Assembly (NCBI GenBank): GCA_937975855.1
Contig: CALJTT010000019.1
Location: 1-42,692, forward strand
Source of the DNA: Minisyncoccota bacterium
Lineage (GTDB): Bacteria > Patescibacteriota > Minisyncoccia > Phycocordibacterales > UBA918
Reading direction: 5' to 3'
Length of the DNA stretch: 42,692 nt
The position numbers were made by a program, and so were the translations under genes. Of this stretch, positions 10,701-27,830 are shown one piece after another (the first letter of the stretch is position 1; each line of letters begins with the position of its first letter). The notes beneath the pieces are model-generated. The model saw nothing but the letters and a program-made list of their open reading frames with translations. It was not told the DNA's origin and searched no databases.

Positions 10701-13700
10701 TCCAACCCAAGTTCCCAGGTGACGATCGTCGGAGCCAGTGTGGGGCCAGGAAGTGTTGTTAGCCCAGCTGGCAGTACGGTGATAAACGCGCCGGCTTTGT
10801 CCCAGGTCAATTATCATTGGCGTACTGATGGTGCAAATGAATCTACTGCGCCGTCTGCCTCGGGCGGGGTGGAAAATACAGGGATCATCGACGTGTTCCA
10901 GGGTACAAATCGACGACTGCGAGTATCTGTCGCCAACGATGGTAGCGCTACAAAGAGCGCTGCCTCGCTTCGGCTCGAGTACGGTAGCAAAGTCACCACC
11001 TGTGCCAACGTTGGAGTTTGGCAACGGGTCGACGATGGTGTTGCTTTTGAAATGGCCTCGACTTCACAGTTGGTCGATGGCAGCGACACAACCAACATTG
11101 CCGTGTCTGGTGGTGGAGTCACTGACTCTGCCGGGACGTTCCTGAGTCCTAACGGTGCTCAGGAAGAGCTGTCTGACCAAGCGGCCTCGTTTGCGCTTTC
11201 CACCACGGAGTTCGTAGAATTGGAATATGCGATTCAGGCGACCGACGCGTCGAGCTTTGGGGCCACGTATTGTTTCCGGTTGACAGACGCTGGTCAGGCG
11301 TTTGGCACGTATGTTAACTATCCTGAATTGACTGTGCAGGAACGGCAGGACTTCTTTGTGCAACGAGGTATAGAAACTGTCAGTGGCACCGGACTGACTT
11401 TGACGGCTGGGATTGACTACACGGCACCCGCTAGTACTGATTCTGCCTTTGTACGCATCACAAACACGCAGCTGACCGGCGCCGGTAGTGACACACTGGG
11501 TGCGACCCAGAACGCAGATGATCTGTATGCCTATATTACTGGCCCGGTTGATTTGACTACCGGATTCACAATCACCAGACCACCAACCGCGGCTGACAAT
11601 ACTCGCGTTTCGTGGGAAATTGTTGAATTTATTGGGATTGCCGGCAGCGATAACGAGTTCATCGTACGTGACGCTGACGAGGTTATTTATGGAGGCGCCA
11701 GCTTGACAGCCTCGGGGTCGACTGTCCCTGGTGTGGTCAATGACGCTGATGTAGTGGTGTTTATTACTGGTCAGTACAATCCAGATGCGGCAAACAAAAA
11801 CTTTAACACCGGTATGTCGATTTCCAGCTGGAACGCAGCAACTGACGTGCCGGTTTTCGACCGAGGTGATGCCGATGGAGTGGCTGCCGGGGTAAGTTAT
11901 GCCGTGGTTGAGTTCACCGGCGCAAACTGGAACGTGCAGCGAGTAGAACATACATACACAGCTGCTGGAACCGTCGAGACCGAAACTATCTCTGCGGTCA
12001 ACGCTTTGACGCGCACCTTTTTGCATACACAAAAATTAGCTGGTGACGAGCTTGATAACGTTGATGAAAACGGTCACGAGGTGTGGCTGTCGAGCATCGG
12101 TGCTGTTTCGTTTTTGCTTGAGCCGGGGTCGAGTGTGCCGGCCGATCAGCGTTCGGTGGCCTGGGTGATTGAGAATACCCAGCTGGGGGCTGGAGCGCTC
12201 AAGGTGTACCGGACGGCTGACACTATCTTGGCGACCAACGTGCAGCCGACGTCATATCTTTATCCGATCGGTGCTACTGTCAGTCCTTCTAATGCGTCTA
12301 TTTGGGCAAACAACCGCAGTAGCGGTTCAGGCAACGCTCACCCTCGAGGTATTTTAGGAGCGCGGATTTTTGACGAAACGCAGTTTGAGCTGTGGAAGAG
12401 TGATGAGCGCGAAGATCAGTCTTTCCGGGTTGAGGTAGTGGAGTGGCCAGTAGCAGAAACGTCAATCCGGCAAACTCACTTTAGGCTTTACGTTGACAAC
12501 GACACGCTGACACCAACGGATCCATGGCCACCGGGGCCGAGTGACCTGGGCGAGAATACAGCCATGACCGACCTGGACGAGCCGTTAGGTCTAGGCGAGC
12601 GAACGCGTATTCGTACCGGATTGTTCATTAACAACGCATCTTTGATTGCCGAGAGCGCGTCGTTCAAGTTGCAATATGGCCGAAGAGTCACAACTTGTTC
12701 AGCAGTATCTGTATGGGGCGATGTCGGATCGCCTGGCAGTTCCGCTATATGGCGTGGCTTTGATGCGTCGCCGGCAGACAATGCTACTTTGCCTAGTGGG
12801 CTGTTGTCTGTGACCAATGAGCTGGGTACCTATGAAGAAGATTCACCATCGGCGTCGAACCCCGCAACGGTTGAAATTGGTGACTATGTCGAGTATGACT
12901 GGAATGTCGAGCACAACGCGGCCTTCCAAAAAAGCAGTTATTGTTTCCGTATGGTGCACAGCGACGGTGAGGAGATTGACGGTTACGACATTTACCCCAT
13001 TATTCGGACCACTGGTTACACGCCTGTGATTGTGAATTGGCGCTGGTACGACGATGAAACAAACGCAACTCCAGCAACTGCTTTGGCAGCCGAACAAACT
13101 GCTCCCGTTGATATTGTTGCAAGTAATACTGTAAAGCTGCGTGTCGCCGTCACCGAAGTCGAGGGTGCACCAGGAGAAGATATAAAATTCAACCTCGAGT
13201 ACTCACAGTGGTCGGATTTCCGTGACGGAGGAACTACGCTAACGTCCACTACTTCTTGTGTTGGTTTGACCCGGACTTGGTGTTACCAAGACGGCGCCGG
13301 GATCGACAACCAAACGTTAGATTCAACTGTCCTGTCAGGCGTTGATGCGTGTGTCAGTGGCGTAGGCGATGGCTGTGGTACGCACAACGAGGCAGAAAGT
13401 TTGATCGGCTTTTACCAACAGCCTGTTTTTACAACTTCTGAACACGAGTTCACTTTGCTACACAATAGCGTCGGGTTTGATCAGGTTTATTATTTCCGAA
13501 TGGTAGACGCCACCAACGGTGTTCCTCTGGTTGCGTCTACTAGCTATCCAAGTCTTACCACCGAGGGTGCCGCTTTGACCTTTTCGATCAGCGGATTGAA
13601 CGCCGGTTCTGTTTACGAGGGTGTTACTCTCGACTCGACAACCACTGCCACAGACGTTGGGTTTGGAACATTACCGTTCAATAGTCAGGTTGAGGCCGGG

Positions 13701-14093
13701 CAGCGACTGACTGTTTATACAAATGGTACAGAGGGGTATCGCGTGTATCTGCAGGCAGATCAACAGCTGACCAGCCAAAATGGCGAGGAACTAAACTCCG
13801 TCACCGGAACAAACGCCGTGCCGTCAGATTGGAACACTGGCTGTGTCGGCGCGGCCAGTAGTTGCTTCGGGTATCACGTAGGGGACAATATTCTGTACGA
13901 CGGTTCGGTCCGGTTTGCGCTGGACGATTCGTACGCGGCCCTCAACACCACAACACCAGTGGAGGTAATGGCCAGTGGAGTTCCGGTAACATTTGATACA
14001 AGTGAGATCATCTACCGTACAGAGGTCAGCGAATCTCAACCAGCGGGAGACTACATAACAACCCTTCGTTATATTGTGGTTCCGGTGTTCTAG
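7743..14093 (+). CDS. giant modular secreted/surface protein (2,116 aa)
   Basis: The N-terminus has a basic start and a hydrophobic segment (about 16-36) that should direct export. Modules repeat. A type-B module (about 505-660 and 850-1015) shares RLFYE-DT, SESYSG and FC-YVV. A type-C module begins YHWR-D near 677 and 1023, with weaker copies at about 1579 and 1765 (NWRWYDDE), and carries RRLRV, LEYS, a Cys pair and YCFR. The C-terminal domain (about 1940-2116) ends in QPAGDYITTLRYIVVPVF, a style I associate with CPR secreted proteins. Paired Cys suggest disulfides outside the cell. No sortase motif or C-terminal membrane anchor is seen. A role in host or surface attachment is inference. Confidence 0.85.
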   Translation: MRLLMGTTSQRKLRSYCSFWLVLTILMIDCFALLEHGIWRASETQAATGDFSVFREATGTEVIAGAGNDVTWDTTVSANANIALQVNTSDIDLADGGKYLVLYNAWTEQGGEGGANRRSLNSYLTVNGTASAYGWGAGYFRDSESDLTAYNSGAAILDVTAGDDVAVVLDRTDSNAGGGTAIRPGTNGVSILKLDDTLDYLRVNQSTNSADISGNTAFTATTFDTADEVDTDSFGFTAGGSAVTLKGAIDQMFIVTFNVRLDSGSTNRQNYEARLLLGGGEVDGTRTTTYWAGSNGTQSGTLQYVGIVKKTSASDQTLTLDVRRESSTSGTTNIVGGETAMALVAIPETAEVLSVTNNGTQALTSAQSAFNWNQQIATAPTYFTHDTVTNNNQVSVAQDGDYLFFGSTYTSRTSGKGRDVPRIEWVLDSTVQSYGGHGAYNRGSQGGTAYTAGGASALLFPGMTTGEVVELYHSDETTGTPDASFAANRVALQGVEVSTLVPPVVTVDVNVSMNGAQIATTAPAMADLVVSEQLAIVENSLARNVTSVRFTEAGTVDATTGLDNIRLFYELDTTFPYDCLSESYSGAEAQFGASSTFSGANGTVVFSDSVSISPTQAFCGYVVADVTDSAIDSETIDLYMADPSLDVVLTGSPSIDPVIPIGTTLTTVVDTELTQTHYHWRNDDGNEAAATSASGGAEDTAVNDLSVGLTRRLRVAITAPGSGFGVEQFRLEYSEKVNSCADVSAWTDVGDVGGAWDMSDSTFLAEGANTTNVSVAIGGVSDSALTFLSTNGGVRDASSETDPLNVSAGDLVELEYSVEPTASAVGGVGYCFRVTDAGAALRQYDVYPEAALLAGIVVDGVGNFAATAVSGTDDAYIGGSFSAVNNSGSFTVTEVIVTETGTVDAAAYLGNPRLFYESDTSAPLDCASESYSGTESQAAGSAFLDANGTTTFTLSSPISVTEAFCAYVVVDISSTTPDGETVAFEISNPSSQVTIVGASVGPGSVVSPAGSTVINAPALSQVNYHWRTDGANESTAPSASGGVENTGIIDVFQGTNRRLRVSVANDGSATKSAASLRLEYGSKVTTCANVGVWQRVDDGVAFEMASTSQLVDGSDTTNIAVSGGGVTDSAGTFLSPNGAQEELSDQAASFALSTTEFVELEYAIQATDASSFGATYCFRLTDAGQAFGTYVNYPELTVQERQDFFVQRGIETVSGTGLTLTAGIDYTAPASTDSAFVRITNTQLTGAGSDTLGATQNADDLYAYITGPVDLTTGFTITRPPTAADNTRVSWEIVEFIGIAGSDNEFIVRDADEVIYGGASLTASGSTVPGVVNDADVVVFITGQYNPDAANKNFNTGMSISSWNAATDVPVFDRGDADGVAAGVSYAVVEFTGANWNVQRVEHTYTAAGTVETETISAVNALTRTFLHTQKLAGDELDNVDENGHEVWLSSIGAVSFLLEPGSSVPADQRSVAWVIENTQLGAGALKVYRTADTILATNVQPTSYLYPIGATVSPSNASIWANNRSSGSGNAHPRGILGARIFDETQFELWKSDEREDQSFRVEVVEWPVAETSIRQTHFRLYVDNDTLTPTDPWPPGPSDLGENTAMTDLDEPLGLGERTRIRTGLFINNASLIAESASFKLQYGRRVTTCSAVSVWGDVGSPGSSAIWRGFDASPADNATLPSGLLSVTNELGTYEEDSPSASNPATVEIGDYVEYDWNVEHNAAFQKSSYCFRMVHSDGEEIDGYDIYPIIRTTGYTPVIVNWRWYDDETNATPATALAAEQTAPVDIVASNTVKLRVAVTEVEGAPGEDIKFNLEYSQWSDFRDGGTTLTSTTSCVGLTRTWCYQDGAGIDNQTLDSTVLSGVDACVSGVGDGCGTHNEAESLIGFYQQPVFTTSEHEFTLLHNSVGFDQVYYFRMVDATNGVPLVASTSYPSLTTEGAALTFSISGLNAGSVYEGVTLDSTTTATDVGFGTLPFNSQVEAGQRLTVYTNGTEGYRVYLQADQQLTSQNGEELNSVTGTNAVPSDWNTGCVGAASSCFGYHVGDNILYDGSVRFALDDSYAALNTTTPVEVMASGVPVTFDTSEIIYRTEVSESQPAGDYITTLRYIVVPVF

Positions 14094-14532: not shown

Positions 14533-14608
14533 TCCGGCGTAGCTCAGCTGGTAGAGCAGTTGACTGTTAATCAATTTGTCGCAGGTTCGAGTCCTGCCGC
14601 CGGAGCCA
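14533..14608 (+). tRNA. tRNA-Asn (anticodon GUU), CCA encoded
   Basis: The acceptor stem TCCGGCG pairs with CGCCGGA; D-arm AGCTCAGCTGGTAGAGC, anticodon loop CTGTTAA (GUU), T-arm GCAGG-TTCGAGT-CCTGC, discriminator G and encoded CCA are all present. The gene is intact although element A is integrated next to it. The recombinase frame reads antisense through the 3' half. Confidence 0.97.
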
Positions 14609-16111
14609 GTTAGGACTATCAGATAGTTCTAGTACTAAATTGAAGGGAGAAGCTAGGGTAAAACCTAGCTTTTTTCCTTGTACGGTAGGGTTCTGAAGTA
14701 GGTAATTCAAAAATGCACGTTTTGAGGAAGCTTCAGAACTATTTTCAAAGATGGTCTTTGCTCTTCGTGCTACAGATATGACTGTAGCAACTGTTGTTTG
14801 GTAGTTGCTGTCTGCCTTGTTGTGTTCTGCCATCTCAATTTCAAGTGTCTGGATTTGGTCTTGGTACTCTTGATGCTTTTTGTCATAGATGTCCTTAGTA
14901 ATACTCTGGTCTAAAAATGCATCTAGCAAACGGTCCGATTTAGCTTTTAGTTTATCGTAGTCAGCTCGTATACGATTTATCTGAGCTTTATGAAAAACAA
15001 CCTCAGCTTCTGTGTTTTTTCGTAACTCATCAACTAAATCATTCTGCACTTCTTCAGTAATGCTTTCAAAGCGTTCCAGAACGTCATATACGGGCTTCAG
15101 AAGGTCTTTCTCTGGTACGTATATCCTTTTACATATCTTCTTTGCATTAGAGCAGGAATAGTACGTATAGGTCTTACCGCTTGGTTTAACTTTTGTTTCT
15201 CCACTGATGGTGCATCCACAGTTTTCGCACTTCAAAAGACCTTTAAAAATAAAGTCTTTGGACAGAGCTTTGTTTGGTTTTCTTTTCCTGCCAGCACAAA
15301 TTTCCTGACATCTATCAAACAGTTCTTTAGTGATCAGCTTTGGATACCTGTGTGGGTATGGACCATACTTTTTTGATACCGCTACTCCATAGTAAAAGCT
15401 ATCTTTAATGATGTAATCAATATTACTCCTTGATATAACGCCTCCCTTAAGGCTTCTTAATCCGAGTTTTGTAATTTCCTGTCGGGCGGTTTCAAGTGAA
15501 TGGTTACCTGTCGCGTACAGCTCAAATAGCTTTTGGATTAAGTGTCCACGATCTGGGTCAATGATAATATCTTTTCGCAAACGTTTATGTTCGTCTAAGG
15601 CTATGTTTAGGTAACCAAGCCTTACAGTACCTGTCCATTCTCCATTACGACGCTTCTGTTCAAACGCTCTTTTAACATTGTCTCCAATAGCATCTGAATA
15701 GTATTTAGCTAAACCTAAACTCATTCCAAATTGAAACTTTTCAACCGCTGACATCTGATTATTGATAACCTGTCCATCAGATACAAAATGTAGTTCAATT
15801 TCATCAGCTAGTGCCATCTCGTATAAAGTACCAACTCGCTTATCGAAAACGCTACGAGAAAGACGGTCAACTTTATCAAAGCAAACCGCGACCTTTTCTT
15901 TTTTAGCTAGCTTTTGAACAAATTCAAGAAGCTTATCAAACTCATCTCTTTTAGATTTGTAGGCACTTTCATCAAAGCTAAAGGTAGTTGGAACTTCTTC
16001 AAGGTCATTTCGTTTACAGTATTCTGAAATACGTTCTATTTGAGCAGGCAATGAGTTACCAGCATCTTTTTGTTCTTCTGTTGAAACTCTGGATACATTG
16101 ATTGCTTTCAT
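14567..16111 (-). CDS. large serine recombinase of element A
   Basis: The catalytic domain begins MKAINVSRVSTEEQ, with Ser and Arg of the RVST nucleophile motif, and continues with CFDKVDRLSR and ELHFVSDGQ. A recombinase domain, a zinc ribbon (CENCGCTI...CSNAKKICKR) and a long coiled coil (about 370-450) follow. This is the architecture of phage and ICE integrases. The track start is a TTG; the ATG at 16111, 1 nt after the methyltransferase stop, matches the paralogue's start. The last 12 residues (from LRRQDSN) are encoded by the antisense strand of tRNA-Asn, so the gene abuts the integration junction. It is closely related to the recombinase at 23569. Confidence 0.94.
   Translation of the reverse strand: MKAINVSRVSTEEQKDAGNSLPAQIERISEYCKRNDLEEVPTTFSFDESAYKSKRDEFDKLLEFVQKLAKKEKVAVCFDKVDRLSRSVFDKRVGTLYEMALADEIELHFVSDGQVINNQMSAVEKFQFGMSLGLAKYYSDAIGDNVKRAFEQKRRNGEWTGTVRLGYLNIALDEHKRLRKDIIIDPDRGHLIQKLFELYATGNHSLETARQEITKLGLRSLKGGVISRSNIDYIIKDSFYYGVAVSKKYGPYPHRYPKLITKELFDRCQEICAGRKRKPNKALSKDFIFKGLLKCENCGCTISGETKVKPSGKTYTYYSCSNAKKICKRIYVPEKDLLKPVYDVLERFESITEEVQNDLVDELRKNTEAEVVFHKAQINRIRADYDKLKAKSDRLLDAFLDQSITKDIYDKKHQEYQDQIQTLEIEMAEHNKADSNYQTTVATVISVARRAKTIFENSSEASSKRAFLNYLLQNPTVQGKKLGFTLASPFNLVLELSDSPNWLRRQDSNLRQID
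14615..14627. other. palindrome next to tRNA-Asn, candidate attL core
   Basis: ACTATC-A-GATAGT is a perfect inverted repeat centred on one base, 7 nt after the tRNA CCA end and inside the recombinase tail. Serine-recombinase sites are imperfect dyads, so this is a candidate half of the junction. I found no matching copy at the other end. Confidence 0.3.
14650..14675 (+). terminator. rho-independent terminator of tRNA-Asn, embedded in recombinase gene
   Basis: AAGCTAGG and CCTAGCTT pair around a GTAAAA loop, followed by a T run. It lies 42 nt downstream of the tRNA on the tRNA strand. The same DNA, read on the other strand, encodes KLGFTLAS of the recombinase. Confidence 0.75.
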
Positions 16112-16112
16112 A

Positions 16113-17081
16113 TTAGTACTCAAGTGCTTTTGTAATATTTTTTGTCATATGCCACATAACAACAGGGGCGACAGCATTACCAAGTGCACGATAATTCTTA
16201 CCTTTTCCATCCAGTAGTTTGAAGTTTTCAGGGAAAGATTGAATTCTCGCAACTTCTCTTGGTGTAAACATTCGGTACCTATCTTTTTCGAATAGCACAG
16301 GATCTGTACTGTTAAGACTCACTTTAGCTAAATGAGAAGTTACTGTATTGCAAGGCTCATTGATATTTTGGGCTCGTCCCTTGTTCATAGTTTTTGAGTT
16401 TTTTGATTTCTTCATTCCCTCAACCGCTCTTTCACTAAAATAATATTTTTCGTCGATTTCGTCTTCAAGAATATCTTTTATTGGAGTAAGGTTTTCTTTC
16501 AGAGTCCCTGTCGGAAAAGAGAAATTTTCAGAAGCCTTCTTGTCTCTAAAGCCAACTATGAATACACGTTCTCGTTTTTGGGGTACACCAAAGTGAGATG
16601 CATTCATAACTTGATAAGATACGTGGTACCCAGCATTTTCAAACTCCTGCAGTATTAAGGGAAAGGTCTCGCCTTTATTTGCTGAGAGTAAACCTTTTAC
16701 ATTTTCAGCGACAAAAGCTTTCGGTTTTTTGTCCTTCAGTACTCTACACATTTCAAAAAAAAGTTTCCCTTTTTCATCATCGTAACCAAGCCTTTTAGGA
16801 TTTTGAGCTACTACAGAAAAAGACTGACAGGGGAACCCTCCAGTTAATATATCGTGATCAGGAACATCTGAAGAAGCGATATCTCTAATGTCTGCCTGTA
16901 AACACTTGTTTTTAAAGTTTAGGTTGTAAATTTCGCAAACATCCTTATCGAAATCCGTCGCAAATACTGTTTGTGTCTTTAGTCTCGTGTATTTTTTACC
17001 CAGAAATTCAAATCCTCCTTCAGTGCCTAAATCCATTCCACCACAACCAGAAAAAAAAGAAGCTATTTTATAAGTACTCAT
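16113..17081 (-). CDS. C5-cytosine DNA methyltransferase A
   Basis: A 322-residue Dcm-type enzyme: motif I FFSGCGGMDLG, motif IV GGFPCQSFS (catalytic Cys), motif VI ENVKG, motif VIII QKRERVFIVG, IX TPREVARIQSFP, X YRALGNAVAP. All catalytic motifs are intact. It starts 3 nt after the endonuclease stop and stops 1 nt before the recombinase ATG, so it is translated within the HTH-to-recombinase operon. With methyltransferase B it probably protects opposite strands of one site. Confidence 0.95.
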   Translation of the reverse strand: MSTYKIASFFSGCGGMDLGTEGGFEFLGKKYTRLKTQTVFATDFDKDVCEIYNLNFKNKCLQADIRDIASSDVPDHDILTGGFPCQSFSVVAQNPKRLGYDDEKGKLFFEMCRVLKDKKPKAFVAENVKGLLSANKGETFPLILQEFENAGYHVSYQVMNASHFGVPQKRERVFIVGFRDKKASENFSFPTGTLKENLTPIKDILEDEIDEKYYFSERAVEGMKKSKNSKTMNKGRAQNINEPCNTVTSHLAKVSLNSTDPVLFEKDRYRMFTPREVARIQSFPENFKLLDGKGKNYRALGNAVAPVVMWHMTKNITKALEY

Positions 17082-17084
17082 ATT

Positions 17085-18500
17085 CTATATAGCTAAATGT
17101 TCCCAGTAACCCGACTTATCAGAGTACCGAATACTTGCACCATCCCTGGGTGTCATATCTAGTAAATCAGACTTATATTTTCCTACTGGATCGTCAATTA
17201 TAAACAACTTAACTCCACTTGATGAAATCATAAGTCGGTACACGTAGTAGCTTGCTCTTGATGTGTTTGCAGAACTCCACTCACTTGGTGTCATTTGAAA
17301 GGAACGAGAAGCAAGCTTGCCTCTACTAATTGTGGTTTTTACTTCAATGTATCGCCTGATGTCACCTTCACCGTGGTAAGAACTAATGTCGTATCCGACC
17401 GCAAACGTTTCAGGTATTTTTTTGATTAGGTGGAGGAGGTCTTCTCTGTCTAAGGAGGTGAGTCTTGCTTTCTCGTGTTCAATAACTATTGACTCTCCAA
17501 CGTCACCAATCTCTTTAGTTTTTATACCCTTATCTGACTCGATCTTAGTTTGAAGCGTTTCAAGTATAGACTTCAAGAAATCCATATCACCTCCGTCTTC
17601 TGCTTCTTCAAGAATAGATAAGATGTTAGCCTTAAATATAGACGTGTCTAATTGGTCGTTAACATACTTGAACCACTGAGGCTGAGTGTCTGTAACCTGT
17701 TTTAAGCTTGCGATTGTATCGGCTTCGTAGAGTGCTTCATAGGGAGGGAAGCAAGTGTTAAGGGAGTTTATGTAGGCCTGAATAGTTTCAAAGTTTACTG
17801 TATTTGGGTAGTACTGATAGTTTGGGCGTAGGGTTACCAGGTCTGCAAGTTCCATATAATCAAGAATATCGCCTGCATATCTTACAACATCCCCAGACTG
17901 GTCAAATTCAATTTTTTCATCCCGTAAGCTAATTATTAACTTTGCGGTCTCAACGGGCGGTCTTTGGTCTCTTGTAACTCTAAGGTCATTGAATATGCAG
18001 TGTGTAGCTTCTGCCTTTGTCATACCAAACTTCTTTTCACCAAGGATTTTCTGACCTTCCATCATAACAGCCAGCATATATCCTGCTGGTTTAAATTTAA
18101 TGCCAGCTTGAATGTATTCAAAACTTTCGTTGGGTTTTAAGTGGCCTCCTGGATATTGAAAATAATATAGAAAATATCTAAAAAACTCGACCAAGTCTTC
18201 TGACTCGGACAACTTTACCGCCAATCTAGAGGGTTTTGCGATATCCTTGTCGTATTCTACGAGACCAAATAAGGCTGAAATCTCAGTTCTCCAATTATTT
18301 ATTGTTTTTATCTTTTTTGACCCATTTTCTGGGTACTGAGCGATAATATTATTTAGCTTTTCGCTGAACGTTTTAGGGTCAGACGCTTCAAGTCTGGCAA
18401 TTTCGTTTGCCATAAAAAACAGAACGTTTTCAACATCGTTTTTAAAGCGAGGTCTTATGTGGTGAATTCTGAAAAAATGTTCGTCAGGTGTTTTATACAT
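17085..18500 (-). CDS. restriction endonuclease with C-terminal DUF3883 nuclease-like domain
   Basis: The 471-residue protein has a long N-terminal part that I do not recognise, probably target recognition. Its C-terminal domain (about 335-460) carries GDVGESIVIEHEKARL, then VGYDISSYHG and RYIEVKTT. This order (Glu helix, GYD, E-V-K) is the DUF3883 variant of the PD-(D/E)XK nuclease core. Flanking C5-methyltransferases on both sides (5 nt and 3 nt gaps) make a type II-like restriction enzyme the best reading. The recognition site cannot be predicted. Confidence 0.8.
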   Translation of the reverse strand: MYKTPDEHFFRIHHIRPRFKNDVENVLFFMANEIARLEASDPKTFSEKLNNIIAQYPENGSKKIKTINNWRTEISALFGLVEYDKDIAKPSRLAVKLSESEDLVEFFRYFLYYFQYPGGHLKPNESFEYIQAGIKFKPAGYMLAVMMEGQKILGEKKFGMTKAEATHCIFNDLRVTRDQRPPVETAKLIISLRDEKIEFDQSGDVVRYAGDILDYMELADLVTLRPNYQYYPNTVNFETIQAYINSLNTCFPPYEALYEADTIASLKQVTDTQPQWFKYVNDQLDTSIFKANILSILEEAEDGGDMDFLKSILETLQTKIESDKGIKTKEIGDVGESIVIEHEKARLTSLDREDLLHLIKKIPETFAVGYDISSYHGEGDIRRYIEVKTTISRGKLASRSFQMTPSEWSSANTSRASYYVYRLMISSSGVKLFIIDDPVGKYKSDLLDMTPRDGASIRYSDKSGYWEHLAI

Positions 18501-18505
18501 AAATA

Positions 18506-19555
18506 TTATGACAATTGCTTAAGTAAAGCCTGACCAATTTTCTCTGCTAATAACGGAGGTACAGCATTACCAACCTGTTTGTACTGACTCGTCTTTGAGC
18601 CAGTAAAGATAAACCCATCAGGGAAGGATTGAAGTCTTGCAGACTCTCGCACAGTTGGGACTCTGTTGAATTTGTAGTGAAAATGATGTCTGTGCCCAGT
18701 GTCAATAGTTGGACTTTGTTTCTTGCTATTAAACCTGGTCCAGGCAATGTTGACTCTTCTGGTATTTTGAAACTCTTTAGGTAAATCTTTATAGTTTCCA
18801 CCATCAGGGACCATTGATATCAAGTCAACAGTTTTCTGTTCGTGATTTGTAAGCTGATGGTTATGGATTTCAGATTTTGAACTCCTTGCCCAGTTCTGGA
18901 AAGAAGATTTTGCTTTTGTCTTAATTTTAAAACCGTCTTCTAAGTCCTTGTCGGGCAGATCAGATATTGCTTCGGCAACAGTCGTCTTGTCATTTGGTGT
19001 GGTCGGATCAGGAAAGGAAAACTCTTGTTTGCTTTTGAGACCGACGAAAACAACTCGACGTCTATTCTGGGGTACTCCATAATCTGAAGCAAGAAGGATT
19101 TTATATGTAACTTTATAACCCAGCTTTTGAAAATCATTGATTATATTATCTTTGATTTTACCCTGGTCCATTGAAACTAAATTAGGTACGTTCTCAAGGA
19201 CGAAAGCCGAAGGATTAAACTTTTTTACAATCTGAACAAATCCTTTATATAAATTGTTTCGAGGATCGTCTGGATTTCTATGCCCTGAAATTGAAAAGCC
19301 TTGGCACGGGGGACCACCAACAACCACATCAATATCCCCTAATTCTTTTTTTAACTCTTGCAAATTAGGGTTGCCTAGATCAACGTTAAATACTTTTGCA
19401 CCACTGTGATTTTTTTCAAATGTTGCCAATGCATCATTCCAATCATCTATACCAGCAACAATATCAAAGCCTGCCATCTCAAAACCGTATGACATACCGC
19501 CACAGCCAGAGAACAGGTCAAGAACTTTTGGTTTTTTACTTAGTTTTTTTGGCAT
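18506..19555 (-). CDS. C5-cytosine DNA methyltransferase B
   Basis: A 349-residue Dcm-type enzyme with LDLFSGCGGMSYGF, VVGGPPCQGFS, LENVPN, QNRRRVVFVG, ESARLQSFP and QVGNAVPP. It is only distantly similar to methyltransferase A, so the two were not made by a recent duplication. Its ATG lies inside the 3' end of the HTH gene (overlap 19540-19555), which suggests coupled translation. Confidence 0.95.
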   Translation of the reverse strand: MPKKLSKKPKVLDLFSGCGGMSYGFEMAGFDIVAGIDDWNDALATFEKNHSGAKVFNVDLGNPNLQELKKELGDIDVVVGGPPCQGFSISGHRNPDDPRNNLYKGFVQIVKKFNPSAFVLENVPNLVSMDQGKIKDNIINDFQKLGYKVTYKILLASDYGVPQNRRRVVFVGLKSKQEFSFPDPTTPNDKTTVAEAISDLPDKDLEDGFKIKTKAKSSFQNWARSSKSEIHNHQLTNHEQKTVDLISMVPDGGNYKDLPKEFQNTRRVNIAWTRFNSKKQSPTIDTGHRHHFHYKFNRVPTVRESARLQSFPDGFIFTGSKTSQYKQVGNAVPPLLAEKIGQALLKQLS

Positions 19556-19719
19556 TTTTTCAGAAAATCATTAAATTCTTGTTTATCAATACGGTATTCC
19601 TTCCCAATCTTATATGCCTTTAGTCTACCTGAATTGATATAGCGATATATTGTCATAATATTCACATCCAACTTCTCAGCTAAATCTTCAGCTCTGTAAA
19701 ACTCTTTATCGGTATCCAT
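19540..19719 (-). CDS. excisionase-type HTH protein of element A
   Basis: This 59-residue gene is missing from the ORF track. Hand translation gives a protein opening MDTDKEFYRAEDLAEKLDV, with the helix-turn-helix MTIYRYINSGRLKAYKIGKE of the MerR-like/HTH_17 excisionase family. It is a clear paralogue of the protein at 25122 (shared KEFYR, MTIYRYI, AYKIGKE). Such proteins control recombination direction or their own operon. Its 3' end overlaps the methyltransferase B start by 16 nt. Confidence 0.88.
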   Translation of the reverse strand: MDTDKEFYRAEDLAEKLDVNIMTIYRYINSGRLKAYKIGKEYRIDKQEFNDFLKKCQKN

Positions 19720-19734
19720 AAGCTTTATTTAATC

Positions 19735-19762
19735 ATTATACTTTACTATTCTTTACATCCAA
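19735..19762 (-). promoter_or_regulatory. promoter of HTH / R-M / recombinase operon (element A)
   Basis: On the minus strand TTGGAT (19757-19762) and TATAAT (19735-19740) are 16 bp apart, and the HTH ATG lies 15 nt beyond the -10. The promoter overlaps the 3' end of the 119-residue ORF. Confidence 0.5.
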
Positions 19763-20095
19763 ACTATTAACCCCCAGTGTGGCATTGAGAAATAATCTGT
19801 AATACTCCCCCTTCATCGTGATAGTGAGCTTTGGATTATCTCTTGTTATACGTTCGTAGTTGGTGGCTATCCATTCCCATATCCTGAGCTCTTGCTCTGG
19901 ATCAACATCTCTTCGAAAATTTAAAAGAGTGCTTTCTAAGCTAGTCTTGTCTACTTCGGAAAGCTTCTTTTTGTAATTTATAACCCGTTCAATAAAGTTG
20001 TTTGTGAGTTCTTTATGTCGTATTCTCCCAACCTTCAATTTGGTGATGTCTACTTTTTCAAGACTAAACACCTGTTTTTTTCCTGTTTTTTTCAT
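19736..20095 (-). CDS. hypothetical protein of element A (119 aa)
   Basis: A charged, mostly helical 119-residue protein (MKKTGKKQVFSLEKVDI...). I recognise no domain. It lies between the replication gene and the HTH gene in the same direction, 3 nt after a 51-residue ORF. Position suggests an accessory role in replication or maintenance, but nothing in the sequence proves this. Confidence 0.6.
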   Translation of the reverse strand: MKKTGKKQVFSLEKVDITKLKVGRIRHKELTNNFIERVINYKKKLSEVDKTSLESTLLNFRRDVDPEQELRIWEWIATNYERITRDNPKLTITMKGEYYRLFLNATLGVNSLDVKNSKV

Positions 20096-20098
20096 AAT

Positions 20099-20254
20099 TT
20101 ATTTTTTTACTTCACTTTTTAATAATGCTTTTTTGTGTGCCATACCCCTTCTGATACTCTCTGATAGTGAATTTCTGTAATATTTTGAAGTTGCGGAAAT
20201 AATTGAATTAATTAATTCTTCTTTTGCTCCAATCTTCTTTTTATTATTTTTCAT
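20099..20254 (-). CDS. small basic protein of element A (51 aa)
   Basis: Not in the track; hand translation gives 51 residues, opening MKNNKKKIGAKEEL and ending LLKSEVKK. Its ATG lies inside the last codons of the Rep gene (overlap 20244-20254) and its stop is 3 nt before the next ATG. The tight packing supports translation. Highly basic; function unknown. Confidence 0.5.
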   Translation of the reverse strand: MKNNKKKIGAKEELINSIISATSKYYRNSLSESIRRGMAHKKALLKSEVKK

Positions 20255-21374
20255 ATTTTTGTACTTTGTATGGTTTGTAATCTGTTAATTTATTATCAAT
20301 TTGTGTTACCCAATCCCTGAGTTTATTTTCAGTGATAAGCTCACTAGCTTCTCTCATATCTTTAGCTATTCGGTACCAAGTTCTGTCGTGTGAGTGTTTA
20401 GCAATTATTGTTCTTAACTGTCTCATTCCATTCTCATCTCTGGCAAGCTGAAACAGTCCTAGTAAATAGATTGCTTGTTTAGGCTTTAGAGATTTGTCAG
20501 CTAAGAACAAGGTACGTAAAATATCCTTTATGCTTAGTGAGACTGAAAACAGTCCGAGACTCCTTTCCTTTATAAGCTTTTGCCAGTAATCATTAACTAC
20601 TCTTTTACTCAATTCTTCACTGAAAACATCTTTGAATGTAGGATTTTTAGAGTAGCCGAAACTTTCTATGACCTTATTCATTTTCTGTTTGTGATTAAGG
20701 CGTATTTCAAAACGCAGAACCTCATTTAATTCGTTGTTTTTAGTCAGACCACTAAGCAAGTTTCGCTGATATTGAGTTTGGTCTTTATCAATCGCACGTT
20801 TTTTATTTTTAGTTAAGTCAGCCATCTTGTCGTAAATAACCATCTGATGTGCAGTTGTGTGTGCATACAGACTTTGTCCATCATTCATAAAGCGTGTTTT
20901 TGCAAAATCAAAGCTCTTTCGCAGATCTACCTTGTTCATTTCCGAAATTAAGTGAGATGCGGTGTACCCGTCATCTATCTGAATGTTCTTAGAAAAATGA
21001 ATAGAGCTAACGGATGCGTCTTCAATATCTGACTCTTTAAGAACGATACCCATTGTTTGGAGTCTATCTTTCAATGTTTTAACTACTTCAGGAAAATCAA
21101 CATCCTGTAGTTCGTCTAAGTTGTTTAAGTAGATTAGTTTTGGAACTGAAAACTCAATGCGGACATTAGCTTCCTGTCCATAATATTTTCGTTTGTAACC
21201 TGTAAGCCTAGGGAAGTACAGACCACTTTCCAAGTCTCTTCTTGAAGGGTTTTTCACGAACTTATCGTATTGGTCAGTTTTGGAGTGTAAGTCCCACTTC
21301 GGTACACCGTAGGACGACAAATCCAGCACAGTGAGCTTTTCTTTTGGTATCAATAAGCACACGGTATCAATCAT
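20244..21374 (-). CDS. gpII/X-family (phage_CRI-like) replication initiation protein
   Basis: The 376 residues open MIDTVCLLIPKE and include VRIEFSVPKLIYLNNLDEL, then HQMVIYDKMADL. These are the hallmark blocks of the gene II/X replication proteins of filamentous phages and related plasmids, which nick one strand to start rolling-circle replication. The catalytic Tyr cannot be assigned with confidence by eye. No phage assembly ATPase (Zot/pI) or coat gene is visible in element A, so it is more likely an integrative plasmid or satellite than a full inovirus. Confidence 0.72.
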   Translation of the reverse strand: MIDTVCLLIPKEKLTVLDLSSYGVPKWDLHSKTDQYDKFVKNPSRRDLESGLYFPRLTGYKRKYYGQEANVRIEFSVPKLIYLNNLDELQDVDFPEVVKTLKDRLQTMGIVLKESDIEDASVSSIHFSKNIQIDDGYTASHLISEMNKVDLRKSFDFAKTRFMNDGQSLYAHTTAHQMVIYDKMADLTKNKKRAIDKDQTQYQRNLLSGLTKNNELNEVLRFEIRLNHKQKMNKVIESFGYSKNPTFKDVFSEELSKRVVNDYWQKLIKERSLGLFSVSLSIKDILRTLFLADKSLKPKQAIYLLGLFQLARDENGMRQLRTIIAKHSHDRTWYRIAKDMREASELITENKLRDWVTQIDNKLTDYKPYKVQKYEK

Positions 21375-21375
21375 T

Positions 21376-21534
21376 TCACCTGTTTTTTACCTGATAAAGT
21401 GCAGGATTTTGTTTCTTATCCTCTTTGATAAGCCACGCAAAAGCTTCGACCAATTTGTTTCTGTCCTCAAGTGATAAATCACTAACGCTGAGGGCAGTTA
21501 CTTGCTTTTGATTGTTATTAATAATTTCCTGCAT
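21376..21534 (-). CDS. small protein upstream of Rep (52 aa)
   Basis: Absent from the track. It reads MQEIINNNQKQVTALSVSDL... to YQVKNR, and its stop is 1 nt before the Rep ATG (TGAAATG). A short UUCG hairpin with a T run lies just before its start. Possibly a replication regulator such as a copy-control protein, by position only. Confidence 0.55.
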   Translation of the reverse strand: MQEIINNNQKQVTALSVSDLSLEDRNKLVEAFAWLIKEDKKQNPALYQVKNR

Positions 21535-21553
21535 ATAAAAATCCCGAAGGATT
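21535..21553 (-). terminator. short UUCG hairpin with T-run (terminator/attenuator)
   Basis: On the minus strand AATCC-TTCG-GGATT is followed by TTTAT. It lies 45 nt after the regulator gene's stop and immediately before the 52-residue ORF. The stem is only 5 bp, so it may act as an attenuator between regulator and replication genes. Confidence 0.45.
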
Positions 21554-21598
21554 AACTGCAGGATAATTTATTGTTTATTTTGTTTTACTTATAGTGTT

Positions 21599-22660
21599 TT
21601 ATAGTGTGACTACCTTATATCCGTTTCTTATCTTTATTGAGTGAAAATTAATAATAAATAAATCACTAATTCCTTTATTAATTAGTCTTTTATTGAATTG
21701 CATCAGTGCGTCATACATATTTTTATCTGTTCGTGGTTTGCCGTCATTTAGTTCAGAATTATCTCTAATTTCATCATAGAAACATTCATCATAAACATCC
21801 TCTCTTTCAAATATGTATTTAATTATGTAGTAGATATCTTTACCTTTTGTTAGCTTTATTTCATTACCTTTACAAATCAGTTTTGAAGACTCGCTATCAA
21901 ATAAAACAGAGTCTTCTTTCTCGGTAGCCTGTTCTATATCATTGAGTTTAATAAGGTTTTGGAACAGATTTACTGGTTCCAACATCTCCTCTTTTGTAAG
22001 CTCGTTTCTGTCATAAAAACCAATGTAATCAGTTTTACCTCTGTTTGTAAGGGAAATTGAAAAGTCTAGTGTTTCATCAACCTCTAATTCCTTGATTTTC
22101 TCAATTAGTCCATAGGTATCATTCTCATCAATTCTCTCTAGGTATGACTTCTGACTCTTCTTATCCTTTTGAATATGTTTATACAAAACATCAATTTCTG
22201 GAACAGAATTCATTATGTTGGTTTTGACAAAAAAATTATTACCTTTCTCTGTTGTCTTGATGTTATCTAAAAAAACATTAAAGGTGTCATCGGTTTTCGA
22301 CAGCCAGTAATCATATCTCTCATCACCTTCCATTTTTCCTAATTTAAGAAAATTATATGTAACTTCCTTAAAAAGAGCGTCTTCGGGGAACTCTAAAAAC
22401 AGCGTTTCTTTATTTTTTTCTATGAAATTAAGCAAAGGAAATATCTTAAAATGTACATACCCATATAAGGTGTCAGACATAAAAGACTCGATAGAATTAT
22501 CTTCAGCAGACCTTTCCTTGTCTATATTCATCAGGCTTTCAATTTCCACAGCAAGAAGCTTATACTCGTGATATTTTTCATAAAAATCTACATCAAGCGG
22601 TATCTTATGTAGTAGTTCATAAACCAAGCCAATTTTTGAAATAAGTCTTTTTCTGTCCAT
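21599..22660 (-). CDS. putative winged-helix regulator of element A
   Basis: A 353-residue, acidic, AT-rich-coded protein. The N-terminal 250 residues match nothing I know. The last 100 (LICKGNEIKLTKGKDIYYII ... IKIRNGYKVV) have the layout of an OmpR/PhoB-like winged helix: strand pair, helices, then a hairpin ending in GY. It is divergent (39 nt) from the gene at 22700, as expected for a regulator of that intergenic region. The domain call is by pattern only. Confidence 0.5.
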   Translation of the reverse strand: MDRKRLISKIGLVYELLHKIPLDVDFYEKYHEYKLLAVEIESLMNIDKERSAEDNSIESFMSDTLYGYVHFKIFPLLNFIEKNKETLFLEFPEDALFKEVTYNFLKLGKMEGDERYDYWLSKTDDTFNVFLDNIKTTEKGNNFFVKTNIMNSVPEIDVLYKHIQKDKKSQKSYLERIDENDTYGLIEKIKELEVDETLDFSISLTNRGKTDYIGFYDRNELTKEEMLEPVNLFQNLIKLNDIEQATEKEDSVLFDSESSKLICKGNEIKLTKGKDIYYIIKYIFEREDVYDECFYDEIRDNSELNDGKPRTDKNMYDALMQFNKRLINKGISDLFIINFHSIKIRNGYKVVTL

Positions 22661-22699
22661 ATACTTTACTTTAGTTTACATTAGCTTATCATTTAATGT

Positions 22700-23503
22700 A
22701 TGCCAACGTATGCTAAAAGATTTAGGACAGAGCGTTATGATTTTGAAACTCATTTAATTTACGCTGAGTTACTTGAAAGATTGTCTGATGCTGTAACCGT
22801 CTCTACTCAGCAGACCGCCAAGCTAAGTTCGTCAGACGCTGAAAAGCTGAAGGAAAAGATACAGTTAGTAAAATTAACGAAAAAATCAATAGACCAAGAA
22901 TATGAGATTGTTACGTTTGACAAAGAATACTCAACAGCTTCAGTTCTTTGGTTGCCTATAAAGACCTACTATCTTATCTATCACTTGATTTGTATATTGG
23001 AATGTCTACTGACAGGAAATTTGAAACATCTTTCGGGTGGGCATTCTACTTTAGTCAGTGAGTTTGCTAAAAAACTTGAAAAATCTGACCTAGAGTTTTC
23101 CAATACTCAACTAAACCTAGTCTTTGACCAAGACATTCTCAACTTTAAGACTAAGTCTGGCGAGCATCTTCATCACGGTGTTGCTGATGATACCTTGTAT
23201 AAATTACTGATGAAAAAAGTTGCCAAAGAGAAGATTGCGAATTTTAAGATAACGAATGCTTTAGATGCTCGCAAAGGAGCTGACAAAGCAAGGATAGTAA
23301 AGTTCACTAATAGCCTGAAAGTTTCAATCTTTGACTATTTTTACTTGATGAGATTAAGGACTAACTATCGCAACTCTAATTTCATAGATGATCTACCATC
23401 AAAAGATACGAAGGTTTATTTCGAGAAGTACTATTCTGCTTCTTGTAATTTCTACTCAGCAACAACTAAGCTAATCAACCAACTGATGAAGGACTGTAAG
23501 TAG
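22700..23503 (+). CDS. hypothetical protein of element A (267 aa)
   Basis: The only plus-strand gene in element A. The protein is mostly helical, with a Lys/Ser-rich region (about 35-65), a hydrophobic helix YYLIYHLICILECLL (about 90-105) and a helical C-terminus. I recognise no family. It is divergent from the putative regulator and ends at the A/B junction, the usual place for cargo such as defence or toxin genes. Confidence 0.6.
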   Translation: MPTYAKRFRTERYDFETHLIYAELLERLSDAVTVSTQQTAKLSSSDAEKLKEKIQLVKLTKKSIDQEYEIVTFDKEYSTASVLWLPIKTYYLIYHLICILECLLTGNLKHLSGGHSTLVSEFAKKLEKSDLEFSNTQLNLVFDQDILNFKTKSGEHLHHGVADDTLYKLLMKKVAKEKIANFKITNALDARKGADKARIVKFTNSLKVSIFDYFYLMRLRTNYRNSNFIDDLPSKDTKVYFEKYYSASCNFYSATTKLINQLMKDCK

Positions 23504-23613
23504 TAAGTTCTGAACTCAATACATCTAATATTCCACTGAATTGCAATTCTTGTTGCACTTTATGCCAATTAGCAGTTCTGAATTCGTCCACTAGGGGGAG
23601 CAGAACAAGATGT
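23504..23613. other. element A/B junction with near-direct repeats and palindromes
   Basis: AGTTCTGAACTC (23506-23517) and AGTTCTGAATTC (23574-23585) form a near-perfect 12-bp direct repeat. A perfect palindrome GAATTGCAATTC lies between them (23538-23549). The second copy begins an imperfect dyad with arms GTTCTG and CAGAAC (to 23612) inside the recombinase tail. This is a candidate attachment region. Confidence 0.35.
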
Positions 23614-25125
23614 AGAGGTGTCAGAAGGGTCACATTGTGTGGCTTTTTCTGTTTCTGAAGTGAAAGATATGATGCTATCAAAGGGTGAATTGATAGTGAA
23701 GGTAATCTCCTTGTCCTTCAAAACAGCGTTCGAAAGTAGTAGTTTTAGGATCTGATTCTTCTCCTCGTCATTCGCACGCTCGAACAGCTCTCCAGCTCGT
23801 CTGGCAAGTAAACAAACATGTTTAACGGTGACGTGGTAGTTGGTGTCTGCAACAGTATGTTCTGCACGTTTTAAGACAATATTCTCGTGGTCAGTATCAA
23901 GTTGCGCCATTTTCTTTTCGTATACTTCCTGTGTGATACGGTCTTGTAACAGCAGCTCAAGTAGATTGTCTTTCTTTGTCTGGATCACTGTGTGTGAGGC
24001 GTGTAGCTTGCTCAGCTCTTCTTTATGATATCGAGCTTTGTATTCGTGTGTCTCACGCAAATGGTCGACGATGCTTTCTAGTTGCTTGTCAGTTAACTGA
24101 ATGCTCTCAAACAGTGGCTTTAGCTGCTCCATAAGCACCGCCTCTTGCGTATATTCGCGTTTGCAGATCTTTTTACCGTTAGAGCAAGCGTGATAGGGTT
24201 TACCGCGTTTGACTTCTCTGCAGACCGTACAGCCGCAATTAGCACACTTTAACCACCCTACAAAAGGATTTGTTTTCTTTCGTTTGACGTGGCCAGATTG
24301 ATTGTCTTTAGCTTTGAGTACTGCCTGCACATTATCGAATAGCGCCTTACTGATTAAGGGTTGGTAGATGTGGTTAAAATACTGATTGTATTTACGCGTG
24401 TAGGCTCGACCAAAGTAAAAAGTGTTGGTCAAAATTGTGTATACAGCACTGGTATGAAATGGACGCCCGGTCCGAGTCGTGACACCTAGGTTGTTTAAGT
24501 GATCACGGATGGTAGCAATTGAGTGTTGTCCTGAGGCATACATTTCGTAGATTTCTTCCACATAATGTGATGTAAGCGGGTCTGGAACTAAATTCTCACG
24601 TAAACGTTTTTTGACATCTCGCATCACGGAAGTATATCCAAATGGGGCGGGACCAGACCATTCGCCTCGTTGACGCATACCCTCAAGGCCACGTTTGGTA
24701 TTGTCACTAATCGCATTTGAATAGTACTCAGCCAAACTAAGATTAATACCAAATTGAAACTTTGTTGTGGCAGACATATCACTACCTATTGCTTGACCGT
24801 CTGACACAAAATGAAGTTCAATTTTTTCATCACGAGCCATTTCGTTCAGTTTCTTGACTCGATCGTCGAAAGTATTTCGCGATAGTCGATCAACCTTATC
24901 AAAACAAACAGCAATTTTTTCATCATGCTTATTGAGCTGTTCAAGTAGTTGGTCAAATTCATTGCGCTTCTCACCGTAAGCACTTTCATCAAAACTATAT
25001 TCTTCTGCAACGGTAAAACCCTTCCGCTCGCAGTATTTTTTCATGCGATCGATTTGTGCAGGCAGGGAATTGCCAGCATCTTTTTGTTCTTCTGTAGATA
25101 CTCGTGCAAATAGAATAGCTTTCAT
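23569..25125 (-). CDS. large serine recombinase of element B
   Basis: 518 residues, same architecture as the element A enzyme: MKAILFARVSTEEQ catalytic start, CFDKVDRLSR, ELHFVSDGQ, recombinase domain, zinc ribbon CANCGCTV...CSNGKKICKR and coiled coil. The start of the two genes is nearly identical even in DNA. After the shared core it has a Cys/Ser-rich tail (TQCDPSDTSTSCSAPP...) absent from its relative, probably encoded by junction DNA. Its ATG overlaps the stop of the HTH gene (ATGA). Confidence 0.95.
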   Translation of the reverse strand: MKAILFARVSTEEQKDAGNSLPAQIDRMKKYCERKGFTVAEEYSFDESAYGEKRNEFDQLLEQLNKHDEKIAVCFDKVDRLSRNTFDDRVKKLNEMARDEKIELHFVSDGQAIGSDMSATTKFQFGINLSLAEYYSNAISDNTKRGLEGMRQRGEWSGPAPFGYTSVMRDVKKRLRENLVPDPLTSHYVEEIYEMYASGQHSIATIRDHLNNLGVTTRTGRPFHTSAVYTILTNTFYFGRAYTRKYNQYFNHIYQPLISKALFDNVQAVLKAKDNQSGHVKRKKTNPFVGWLKCANCGCTVCREVKRGKPYHACSNGKKICKREYTQEAVLMEQLKPLFESIQLTDKQLESIVDHLRETHEYKARYHKEELSKLHASHTVIQTKKDNLLELLLQDRITQEVYEKKMAQLDTDHENIVLKRAEHTVADTNYHVTVKHVCLLARRAGELFERANDEEKNQILKLLLSNAVLKDKEITFTINSPFDSIISFTSETEKATQCDPSDTSTSCSAPPSGRIQNC

Positions 25126-25304
25126 GATTTAGTTGTTTTTGTAGCCTCTAAGAAGTCCTCAAGGTCGCTGTGTTTAATTCGAAATTCTTTCCCGATCTTA
25201 TAGGCAGGCAACTTACCGGCTTTGATGTACCGATAGATGGTCATGATGTGCACATCTAGCTTATTGGCAACATCATCAACTCGGTAGAATTCTTTTTCTA
25301 ACAT
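25122..25304 (-). CDS. excisionase-type HTH protein of element B
   Basis: A 60-residue MerR-like/HTH_17 protein: KEFYRVDDVANKLDV then MTIYRYIKAGKLPAYKIGKE. It sits directly upstream of the recombinase with a 4-nt overlap, the standard excisionase-integrase pair. It is a paralogue of the gene at 19540. Its promoter puts the -10 only 6 nt from the ATG. Confidence 0.9.
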   Translation of the reverse strand: MLEKEFYRVDDVANKLDVHIMTIYRYIKAGKLPAYKIGKEFRIKHSDLEDFLEATKTTKS

Positions 25305-25349: not shown

Positions 25350-27830
25350 TTAAGAAACATCGTCATAAGGTGAAGTCTTTGCATATGCTGTCTGTGCTGT
25401 CTCAGTAGGTAATAATGAGTCTGTTTTAGAATCTGTATCTTTCCAATACATTCCGATATGTTCTGATACAGTGTCAGAGGCATTCGAAGATGTGTGTGCC
25501 TGACATGTTCCGTCACAATCTGCCACAAGCTGGTGTGGCTCACTCTCATCAGACTTTACAATATTGCTGTCTGCGCTGTCTTTAGTTTCTTCTGAAGCTC
25601 GCTTTAATGTAACGGTACGAGTTTTGTTGTTTGGTTTGTGGAAATCTACCCGAATACCTAGTTTCAGTAGACTATTTTCAATATCACGCATTTTTCGCCC
25701 GAGTGATGCTTCATTTTTGGGATAGTTCTCATCGATCACCATTTGTAGGTCATCGTTACGATTACGCGTGCGCAATTCTTCGTATAACTCTGTCATGGTG
25801 CCGCTCCAATGCTCATGGTCTTCCATAAACGCCATGATGAGCCGACCAGTACCAATTCCATAGGCCGCTTCGTACGCCTGCTCCTCGACCGATCGCTTCA
25901 GTGTCGCACGAAAGTGATCGACGTCATACCCAAGGACCTTTGCGACTGCTTGTGCCCAAAGTGCACAACTTTTCATCCGATGTGGCACGTCTTGCGGGAG
26001 TTTGTCCTTCACAGCCATAGCTTTACTCACTGCATCAAAGATCGCTCCGAGCAAGTGCGGCTTATCAAGATTGAAGTCAGTCAGCATCTTCTCTTGGTTG
26101 GCTGATGTCGTGTCAGATAGGCGTCGAGTTTTGAAGGCGATGGTCCGGCTATGCAAGTCACTTTGATGAATCTCGATATTGATGCCGGTAAAGTACATCG
26201 GATTCTTGAAATGCATTTTCACTTTCTCAGTGTTTGAATACAATTTTCGAACCGAAGCACTTCCACCGGTAGCCACGGTGCATAAGAACGCTGACATGTC
26301 ATCATTGATGCGAAATGTGTTGTCGTACGCAAGCATCCATCCCTGGCTTAATACAAGCTGCAAGTCATCAATTTTAGAAATTGGCACAGCCACATCTTCA
26401 ACTACCGGATCGAGCAGCTCTTGTGTAAACCGCAGTAGCGTAGATTTTGCGCTACCAGCAGGACCGTGGATATAGCCAATCATCTGGTCGATGTCGCGAA
26501 CCATTCGTGTTGGCAAGAGTGAAATGTACAACATCTTTGCCTCTTCGCTTTCTAGGTTCATGTATTTGGCGAACTGCTTTAAGTCGCCACCTTCTTTTGG
26601 GGTGACCATTTTAGCCCCATCTCCTTTACGAAACACAAATGGGTACTTATTGTAATCACTCAGACGCCAGCCATCTTTGTCGACCTCAACCACTGTCCCA
26701 ATGTCATTGGCCAGGTCATAAACGAAAGTATCTCGAACCCGCGCTACTCGGTAATGGATAGTGTGCTGAAGACCATCAAAACGCGCTCGAGCTGACAGTG
26801 CCCCTGCAATTTCTTTAAGCAACACTTCACTCACACCACCCAGCTCAGCTTTGTATGCTGTATACCTCACAAAGTCGTCGAAGTAATGGCTAAAGATCGG
26901 CACATTCACGTGAGTCTTTTTGAATGGAATACGAACATAAGCCTCATCGTATTGATCTTTGAAAAATACGACTCCCTCAGCCTTCTCGATCAGTTTCATA
27001 AGTTTGTCAGATTTTGCAGTTCGTTTCTCTTTTGGTTCTTCAAAGTTGCTATTGGTCCATGCACACATGTTTTCTACTTCACGTGTAGGCAGTGATGGCT
27101 CACAGCAATTTTGGTTCCATGTGTTGACTTGTTGTTCAAAATTAGCTGGACCAACTTTGTTCCAGAAATACGCGCAAGCCTTTTTTAAAGATTCGTGACG
27201 AGCTCCTTCAGTTACAGTTTGACTCGGATCAAACGTTGCGCGAGTCTCGCGATGTTCTTTGTTTGGAATTAGTTCTTCTGCAGTAAGAGGGAAGTCAGCC
27301 AATTCCATATCAAAGGGTGAAATGGACCACACATAAGGCCCAGCTTCGTTTTCTGAGGGAGGCAGCACTACGTACCCACCATCACCACGTAGATCAATAT
27401 GCTTTTCAAACTGGCTCGCACTGCTGGTAACTGCAAAGTCTGGATACTTGTAAAAGTAATGCCAGCCACCGCTTCCGGTCTGCGAAGACACTGTTCCTGA
27501 TGGTTTGAATACTCCTTTGGTGTTGTGTTTAGGTCGATCATCATCAATGACGACGACACCCGATAGTTTTCCGGTTACCAGTCCAATACCGTGTGTACTT
27601 TCTGCACCCCACCAACTCTCTAGCTCCTCTGTGGTCGGCAAGCGGCTTTGGTACTCTTTCCAGCTAACGGCTGGTTTCTTGTCTTAGGTAACAGGGATGA
27701 CGCTCCAGCCCATGTCTAGGTACTTTTGCGCATGATCGAGCATCTCGCGTTTGACGTTATGTTCAACTTGATTCTTGTGTAGTAAAATAGCTTCATGATC
27801 GGCGCTCTGCGCCGGTTTGTTCGTTTCCAT
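25350..27830 (-). pseudogene. Prim-Pol / SF3 helicase replication protein interrupted by in-frame TAA
   Basis: The track splits this into a 763-residue ORF with a TTG start and an upstream ORF ending VIPVT. Both are in one frame, 15 codons apart, and together give an intact primase-polymerase start: MLDHAQKYLDMGWSVIPVT, stop, DKKPAVSWKEYQ. The archaeal-type primase blocks VVVIDDD, SGGWHYFY and LRGDGGYVVLPPS follow. The C-terminal half is an SF3-like helicase with Walker A GPAGSAKST and Walker B WMLAYDNTF. The TAA (27684-27686) falls in the first conserved block. The proposed ATG is at 27830. Unless the stop is an assembly error or is read through, the replication gene of element B is dead. 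Confidence 0.8.

Follow-up and report, generated by a model that had tools for sequence, protein, structure and literature searches.

The window, by which I mean the whole 42,692-nt stretch of Minisyncoccota DNA analysed here, contains on its minus strand a gapless run of five open reading frames. The first to be read encodes an HTH_17/excisionase-like protein of 59 amino acids (19540..19719; Pfam HTH_17/excise), henceforth HTH. It is followed by a C5-cytosine DNA methyltransferase, M_B (18506..19555; Pfam C5 methylase plus motifs), a BpuJI-type endonuclease, R (17085..18500), a second C5-cytosine DNA methyltransferase, M_A (16113..17081; motifs FSGCG, PCQ, ENV, and QxRxR), and finally REC_A, a large serine recombinase of 514 amino acids (14567..16111) that combines the Pfam families Resolvase, Recombinase, and Zn_ribbon. 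The initial annotation of this DNA saw three restriction-modification (R-M) genes without intergenic space splitting a pair formed by HTH and recombinase, with one methyltransferase beginning inside the HTH gene and the other ending 1 nt before the recombinase. The junctions bear this out in every part: HTH and M_B overlap by 16 nt, 5 nt separate M_B from R, 3 nt separate R from M_A, and a single nucleotide lies between the stop codon of M_A and the ATG of REC_A at 16111 (TAA-T-ATG). Were REC_A instead to start from the in-frame TTG at 16123, it would overlap M_A by 11 nt.

R combines the N-terminal recognition domain of BpuJI (PF11564, E = 2.3e-92; structure 2VLA, E = 1.3e-16) with a NOV_C domain containing a D..EVK motif. 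BpuJI recognizes CCCGT. If the system in the window is BpuJI-like, its asymmetric site would require one m5C methyltransferase per strand, and I infer that M_A and M_B, both of which carry C5 methylase motifs, are that pair. CCCGT is not significantly avoided in the window, where 27 sites are found and 33 are expected from a Markov model.

The operon belongs to a larger unit, element A. REC_A stops (at 14567) within the gene for tRNA-Asn(GTT) (14533..14608, plus strand), its 3' end lying antisense to the 3' half of the tRNA. Comparison of recombinase ends places an attachment core, GGAGC, at the 3' end of the tRNA gene (14602-14606) and a second GGAGC in a far-end arm (23575..23601, plus strand), delimiting about 9.0 kb (14602..23601). 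Read on the recombinase strand, the arm is GCTCC-N5-7-TGGACGARTTCAGAAC, with GCTCC as the core. It occurs once in the window and not once in 100 shuffles, and it recurs in the related loci L059, L068, L108, and L110. In L108 there are three copies (1929, 3378, and about 4265), which suggests scars of earlier insertions at one tRNA. A blastn search for tRNA-like repeats at the far end gave mostly noise, and a core at GGA in the T-arm was dropped, as the acceptor strand would then be element-derived and mismatch the host. Judged from its sequence, element A has what defines an integrative element: its own recombinase, a target gene, and two attachment sites. On the other side of the target tRNA, at 7743-14093, lies an open reading frame of 2116 amino acids that matches nothing in Pfam and may encode a large surface protein.

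Upstream of HTH, also on the minus strand, are A119 (19736..20095), a conserved small protein with homologues in five other loci; A51 (20099..20254), a small ORF with a homologue in L052; Rep376 (20244..21374), a G2P-like replication initiator; A52 (21376..21534), a conserved small ORF preceding it; and A353 (21599..22660), a backbone protein 68.9% identical to its counterpart in L054. The divergent backbone gene A267 (22700..23503, plus strand) encodes a protein 57.9% identical to one in L052. No function is assigned to A119, A353, or A267. Rep376 has homologues in more than 50 loci, and its family profile (A3) matches proteins of L130 (E = 8e-11) and L124 (E = 2.6e-8) that themselves match Phage_CRI, the Pfam family of the G2P N-terminus. 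On this basis element A probably replicates by means of a rolling-circle-type initiator. A tblastn search of plasmid and phage collections found no relatives of Rep376. Its structural model matches PDB folds poorly (TM about 0.2) and two unnamed proteins in a viral fold library somewhat better (E = 5e-10 and 7e-9, TM about 0.49), which I do not take as proof. Scans with Pfam, PHROGs, and NCBIfam found in element A no relaxase family, no virion genes, and neither of the hallmarks of Inoviridae (a Zot-like morphogenesis ATPase and coat proteins). The G2P-like Rep might serve in transfer in place of a relaxase.

The far arm of element A falls inside the 3' end of a second serine recombinase, REC_B (23569..25125, minus strand), and so another element, B, must already have been in place at the same tRNA when A inserted. 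The last codons of REC_B (23569-23601) lie in the arm and have been rewritten by the insertion of A, with the reading frame still intact. The HTH gene of element B (25122..25304, minus strand) abuts REC_B with no cargo between them, its stop codon (25122-25124) overlapping the ATG at 25125 in the sequence ATGA, just as had been noted at the outset. Beyond it is a Prim-Pol replication protein (25350..27641, minus strand). Element B thus has the same HTH-recombinase module with Prim-Pol instead of a G2P-like Rep, a swapped replication module. Its far end was not found, there being no GGAGC between 23601 and 31179.

Relatives and the genes between HTH and recombinase

Relatives were sought in 196 related genomes with the recombinase and in GTDB contigs with a recombinase alignment, which gave 68 loci; the same alignment found none in IMG/VR. 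The family is mostly one of Patescibacteria, in many lineages, with distant kin in Dependentiae, and it inserts at the 3' ends of tRNA genes. In nearly all members the 3' end of the recombinase runs antisense into the 3' end of a tRNA, mostly Asn but also Gln, His, Asp, and Arg. In L064, a group I intron occupies the anticodon region of the target tRNA-Asn (7139-7428; Rfam RF00028, 60.4 bits), and similar sequence, recognized only by eye, lies just past the recombinase in L053, L056, L059, L068, L075, and L097.

Loci were picked by recombinase alone, disregarding cargo, and HTH was then sought upstream. Both genes are present in 41 distinct loci, a count that includes the window and leaves element B aside. 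They enclose one to three genes in 40 of the 41, and only in L074 (and in element B) does HTH directly adjoin the recombinase. With 40 of 41 loci fetched by recombinase similarity showing it, the order of HTH, cargo, and recombinase is not a matter of chance. The enclosed genes always lie on the operon strand and are packed as tightly as in the window: over 110 junctions, taken from the 39 tabulated loci, gaps have a median of 2 nt, and the only three that seem to exceed 30 nt (L055, L099, and L105) are occupied by further ORFs.

As a control, 18 further large serine recombinases from the same order were taken, and for none of them does the 8 kb upstream contain such an HTH. A methyltransferase match accompanies one of the 18, on the opposite strand, as judged by models that were built from slot proteins and could miss distant R-M genes. 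Scans of ten upstream proteins in the control set identified seven as replication initiators or primases and not one as an R-M protein. Other serine recombinases of this order stand beside Viral_Rep, G2P, or Prim-Pol in L118, L119, L122, L124, L125, L130, and L135, which suggests a large group of Rep-recombinase elements. Lone C-terminal recombinase fragments, some beside tRNA genes (L041, L042, L043, L044, L046, and L047), resemble remnants of decayed or displaced elements.

What fills the slot between HTH and recombinase is, in 33 of the 41 loci, identifiable as a modification or restriction enzyme, and types II, IIG, III, I, and IV are all represented. The type II systems resemble BpuJI (the window and L055), HpaII (L060), ThaI (L054), CfrBI (L049), and AlwI (L089), or join an EcoRI methylase to a GmrSD-HNH nuclease (L067) or a methyltransferase to an endonuclease VII-like partner (L063). 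Type III mod-res pairs are found in L051, L052, L070, L080, L082, L105, L110, and L115, type I hsdMSR in L077 and L095, IIG-like fusions in L086 and L111, and a type IV Mrr enzyme in L069. Clustering, motifs, and tallies, rather than individual tables, underlie the assignment of the type III and type I loci and of L064, L086, L108, and L111. Seven loci (L056, L057, L059, L062, L065, L090, and L113) have other or unassigned cargo. With no identifiable R-M genes in these seven and no cargo at all in L074 and element B, R-M is evidently not obligatory. A methyltransferase usually comes first in the slot, but a different gene leads in L050, L079, and L108, which weakens any argument from the order of expression.

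Several slot proteins match no known family. One group of 184 to 223 amino acids recurs at L056:599-1237, L059:9333-10004, L062:9450-10004, and L069:9373-10014. The two members scanned, those of L056 (Pfam) and L069 (PADLOC), gave no match. The member in L069 follows the Mrr enzyme. The group is a candidate for a new kind of defence or restriction protein.

Exchange of cargo behind a conserved promoter

The initial annotation had suggested aligning the HTH-recombinase junction with relatives that lack the cassette. Done with relatives that carry other cargo, the alignment fails precisely at the edges of the flanking genes: when the window is compared with L049, L050, and L051, whose recombinases are 76-77% identical to REC_A, DNA homology is lost at the 3' end of HTH and regained at the start of the recombinase. 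Much the same break separates L049 from L050. The window and L055, on the other hand, have the whole arrangement in common, including all three R-M genes. Recombinase identity reaches 75% or more in 38 pairs (seven of which involve L048 or other partly sampled slots); cargo homology is undetectable in 34 of these, and cargo is at least 50% identical in only one. The converse is seen in L070 and L115, where the type III systems are 74% identical and the recombinases 42%. The cargo evolves independently of the backbone.

The region just 5' of HTH is, by comparison, conserved. In the window it holds a promoter-operator (19735..19763, minus strand), TTTGGA-17-TATAAT with a GTAAAG repeat in the spacer, which scores 29.8 bits against a matrix from which the window was left out. 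The consensus is TTGCWA, a 17-nt spacer TGTAAAG-N3-WGTAAAG in which the repeats are spaced 10 bp, and TATAAT. The selection pattern forced neither TTG nor the final T of TATAAT, and both are conserved nonetheless. The site stands directly 5' of HTH in 26 loci as judged by the matrix (20 by a strict pattern) and in four more lies 268-862 nt upstream, before extra small genes. A subgroup of Levybacteria type (L082, L086, L090, L095, L097, L099, and L113) gave no such site, nor was there any match in 763 kb of shuffled loci. A weaker copy (22658..22686, minus strand, 15.6 bits) heads the train of replication genes in element A.

Between HTH and recombinase, no copy of the promoter-operator exists in the 39 loci scanned. 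A conserved site before HTH and none in the slot together make a single message for HTH, R-M, and recombinase well supported at the level of sequence comparison, and they favor the original view that the R-M genes share the promoter of the recombination genes. The arrangement that would speak against that view is an internal promoter and terminator setting the R-M genes apart, and the same observations argue against the internal promoter. Generic sigma-70-like matches are no more frequent than chance predicts (23 found against 27 expected), and weak promoters within the R-M genes may exist. Terminator-like sites are about twice as frequent as expected, and two of them lie on the operon strand within R.

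What the slot may be for

I propose that element A is a 9-kb integrative element, built of a G2P-like Rep, an HTH regulator or excisionase, and a serine recombinase, in which the position between the latter two is a dedicated, exchangeable slot, filled mostly by complete R-M systems. One conserved promoter 5' of HTH would drive HTH, methyltransferase, nuclease, and recombinase together. The HTH protein most likely binds the GTAAAG repeat and so limits its own operon, and it is a candidate excisionase besides. Upon entry into a naive cell, one without HTH protein, the operon would fire; the methyltransferase, usually first in the slot, would protect the genome before the nuclease appears, and the recombinase would integrate the element. 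Low-level expression would later maintain both modification and restriction, serving as defence against competitors and as a penalty on loss. I give this combination of exchangeable slot, HTH-led message, autoregulation, ordered entry, and loss penalty a probability of about 0.7. Protection, cutting, and mobility appear to be switched on together, and it is plausible that R-M expression is timed to mobility or acts as an addiction. More tentatively, R-M may be a core module of the element rather than cargo, the excisionase-like protein controlling one message for protection, killing, and integration. Were that so, entry and loss of the element would be tied to a methylation race inside the recipient.

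The strongest alternative, which I consider to have not quite an even chance, is that the slot is a plain cargo hotspot. Homologous recombination through the flanking genes, conserved enough to provide the homology, would import useful defence genes, the shared operon would be incidental, and there would be no timing. Defence hotspots beside integrases are known (PMC9122126), and the seven loci with other cargo are what one might expect of such a site. A plain hotspot would not so readily explain why cargo is always on the operon strand, joined by gaps of a few nucleotides and devoid of a promoter copy, or why modification and restriction enzymes prevail over a mixture of defence types.

It is unlikely that HTH is instead the R-M operon's own controller, analogous to a C-protein or to MAD1, with the recombinase a hitchhiker. 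HTH does directly precede the methyltransferases and resembles mad1 (PADLOC, E = 8.6e-12), though its score of 28 bits against the NCBIfam MAD1 model, where the curated cut-off is 80, falls below what marks a MADS defence system (MAD1 above that cut-off plus other mad genes). It matches the excisionase model TIGR01764 above the model's cut-off, its homology tracks the recombinase backbone and not the R-M type, and it stays by the recombinase where R-M is absent, as in element B and L074.

The direction of change remains to be considered. The recombinase tree places REC_B inside the cargo-bearing clade, as sister to L070, a carrier of type III R-M (support 100/97, on a long branch), and so a loss of cargo is more likely for element B. 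In L073, a close relative of L074, a gene abuts the recombinase, and both compact forms are more simply read as having lost their cargo. That an R-M cassette was inserted once into an ancestral compact pair like that of element B, as first supposed, probably has the direction wrong and is the least credible proposal, considering that the compact forms it appeals to (element B and L074) number 2 of 42, that REC_B nests among cargo bearers, and that the closest relatives of element A all have cargo.

R-M systems have long been suspected of being selfish mobile units, and their vehicles are usually unclear. Here different R-M types occupy one operon slot behind one promoter, an arrangement in which the timing of expression and addiction can be tested directly, and new restriction enzymes can be found by reading the genes between HTH and recombinase.

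I found no published description of this element family in the literature covered, which takes in few subscription journals. The window's R-M system shares with the type IIS system BpuJI the N-terminal recognition domain; the likeness covers that domain, the site specificity and the C-terminal nuclease may differ, and the window's genes differ in standing in an operon with HTH and recombinase. In the same phylum, type I R-M has been described on a genomic island of a Patescibacteria MAG (PMC12455944). It is a single island, and the accessible text of that report mentions neither a recombinase nor a slot or operon. Mobile addiction modules (PMC8989522, PMC3031569) resemble element A in that R-M forms a mobile, self-maintaining unit, but in the accessible portions of those papers no operon slot set aside among mobility genes is described. 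The closest parallel is the hotspot between psu and int in P4-like satellites, small integrative elements in which varied defence genes, type II and III R-M among them, are found at one fixed site by the integrase gene (PMC9122126). The P4 cargo, beside cos, occurs in both orientations and was tested with its native promoters. Family scans match no element A protein to a P4-type family. The family of element A stands apart in its serine recombinase, its G2P-like Rep, and its cargo, which consists almost entirely of R-M or restriction genes and keeps a single orientation within the operon of HTH and recombinase.
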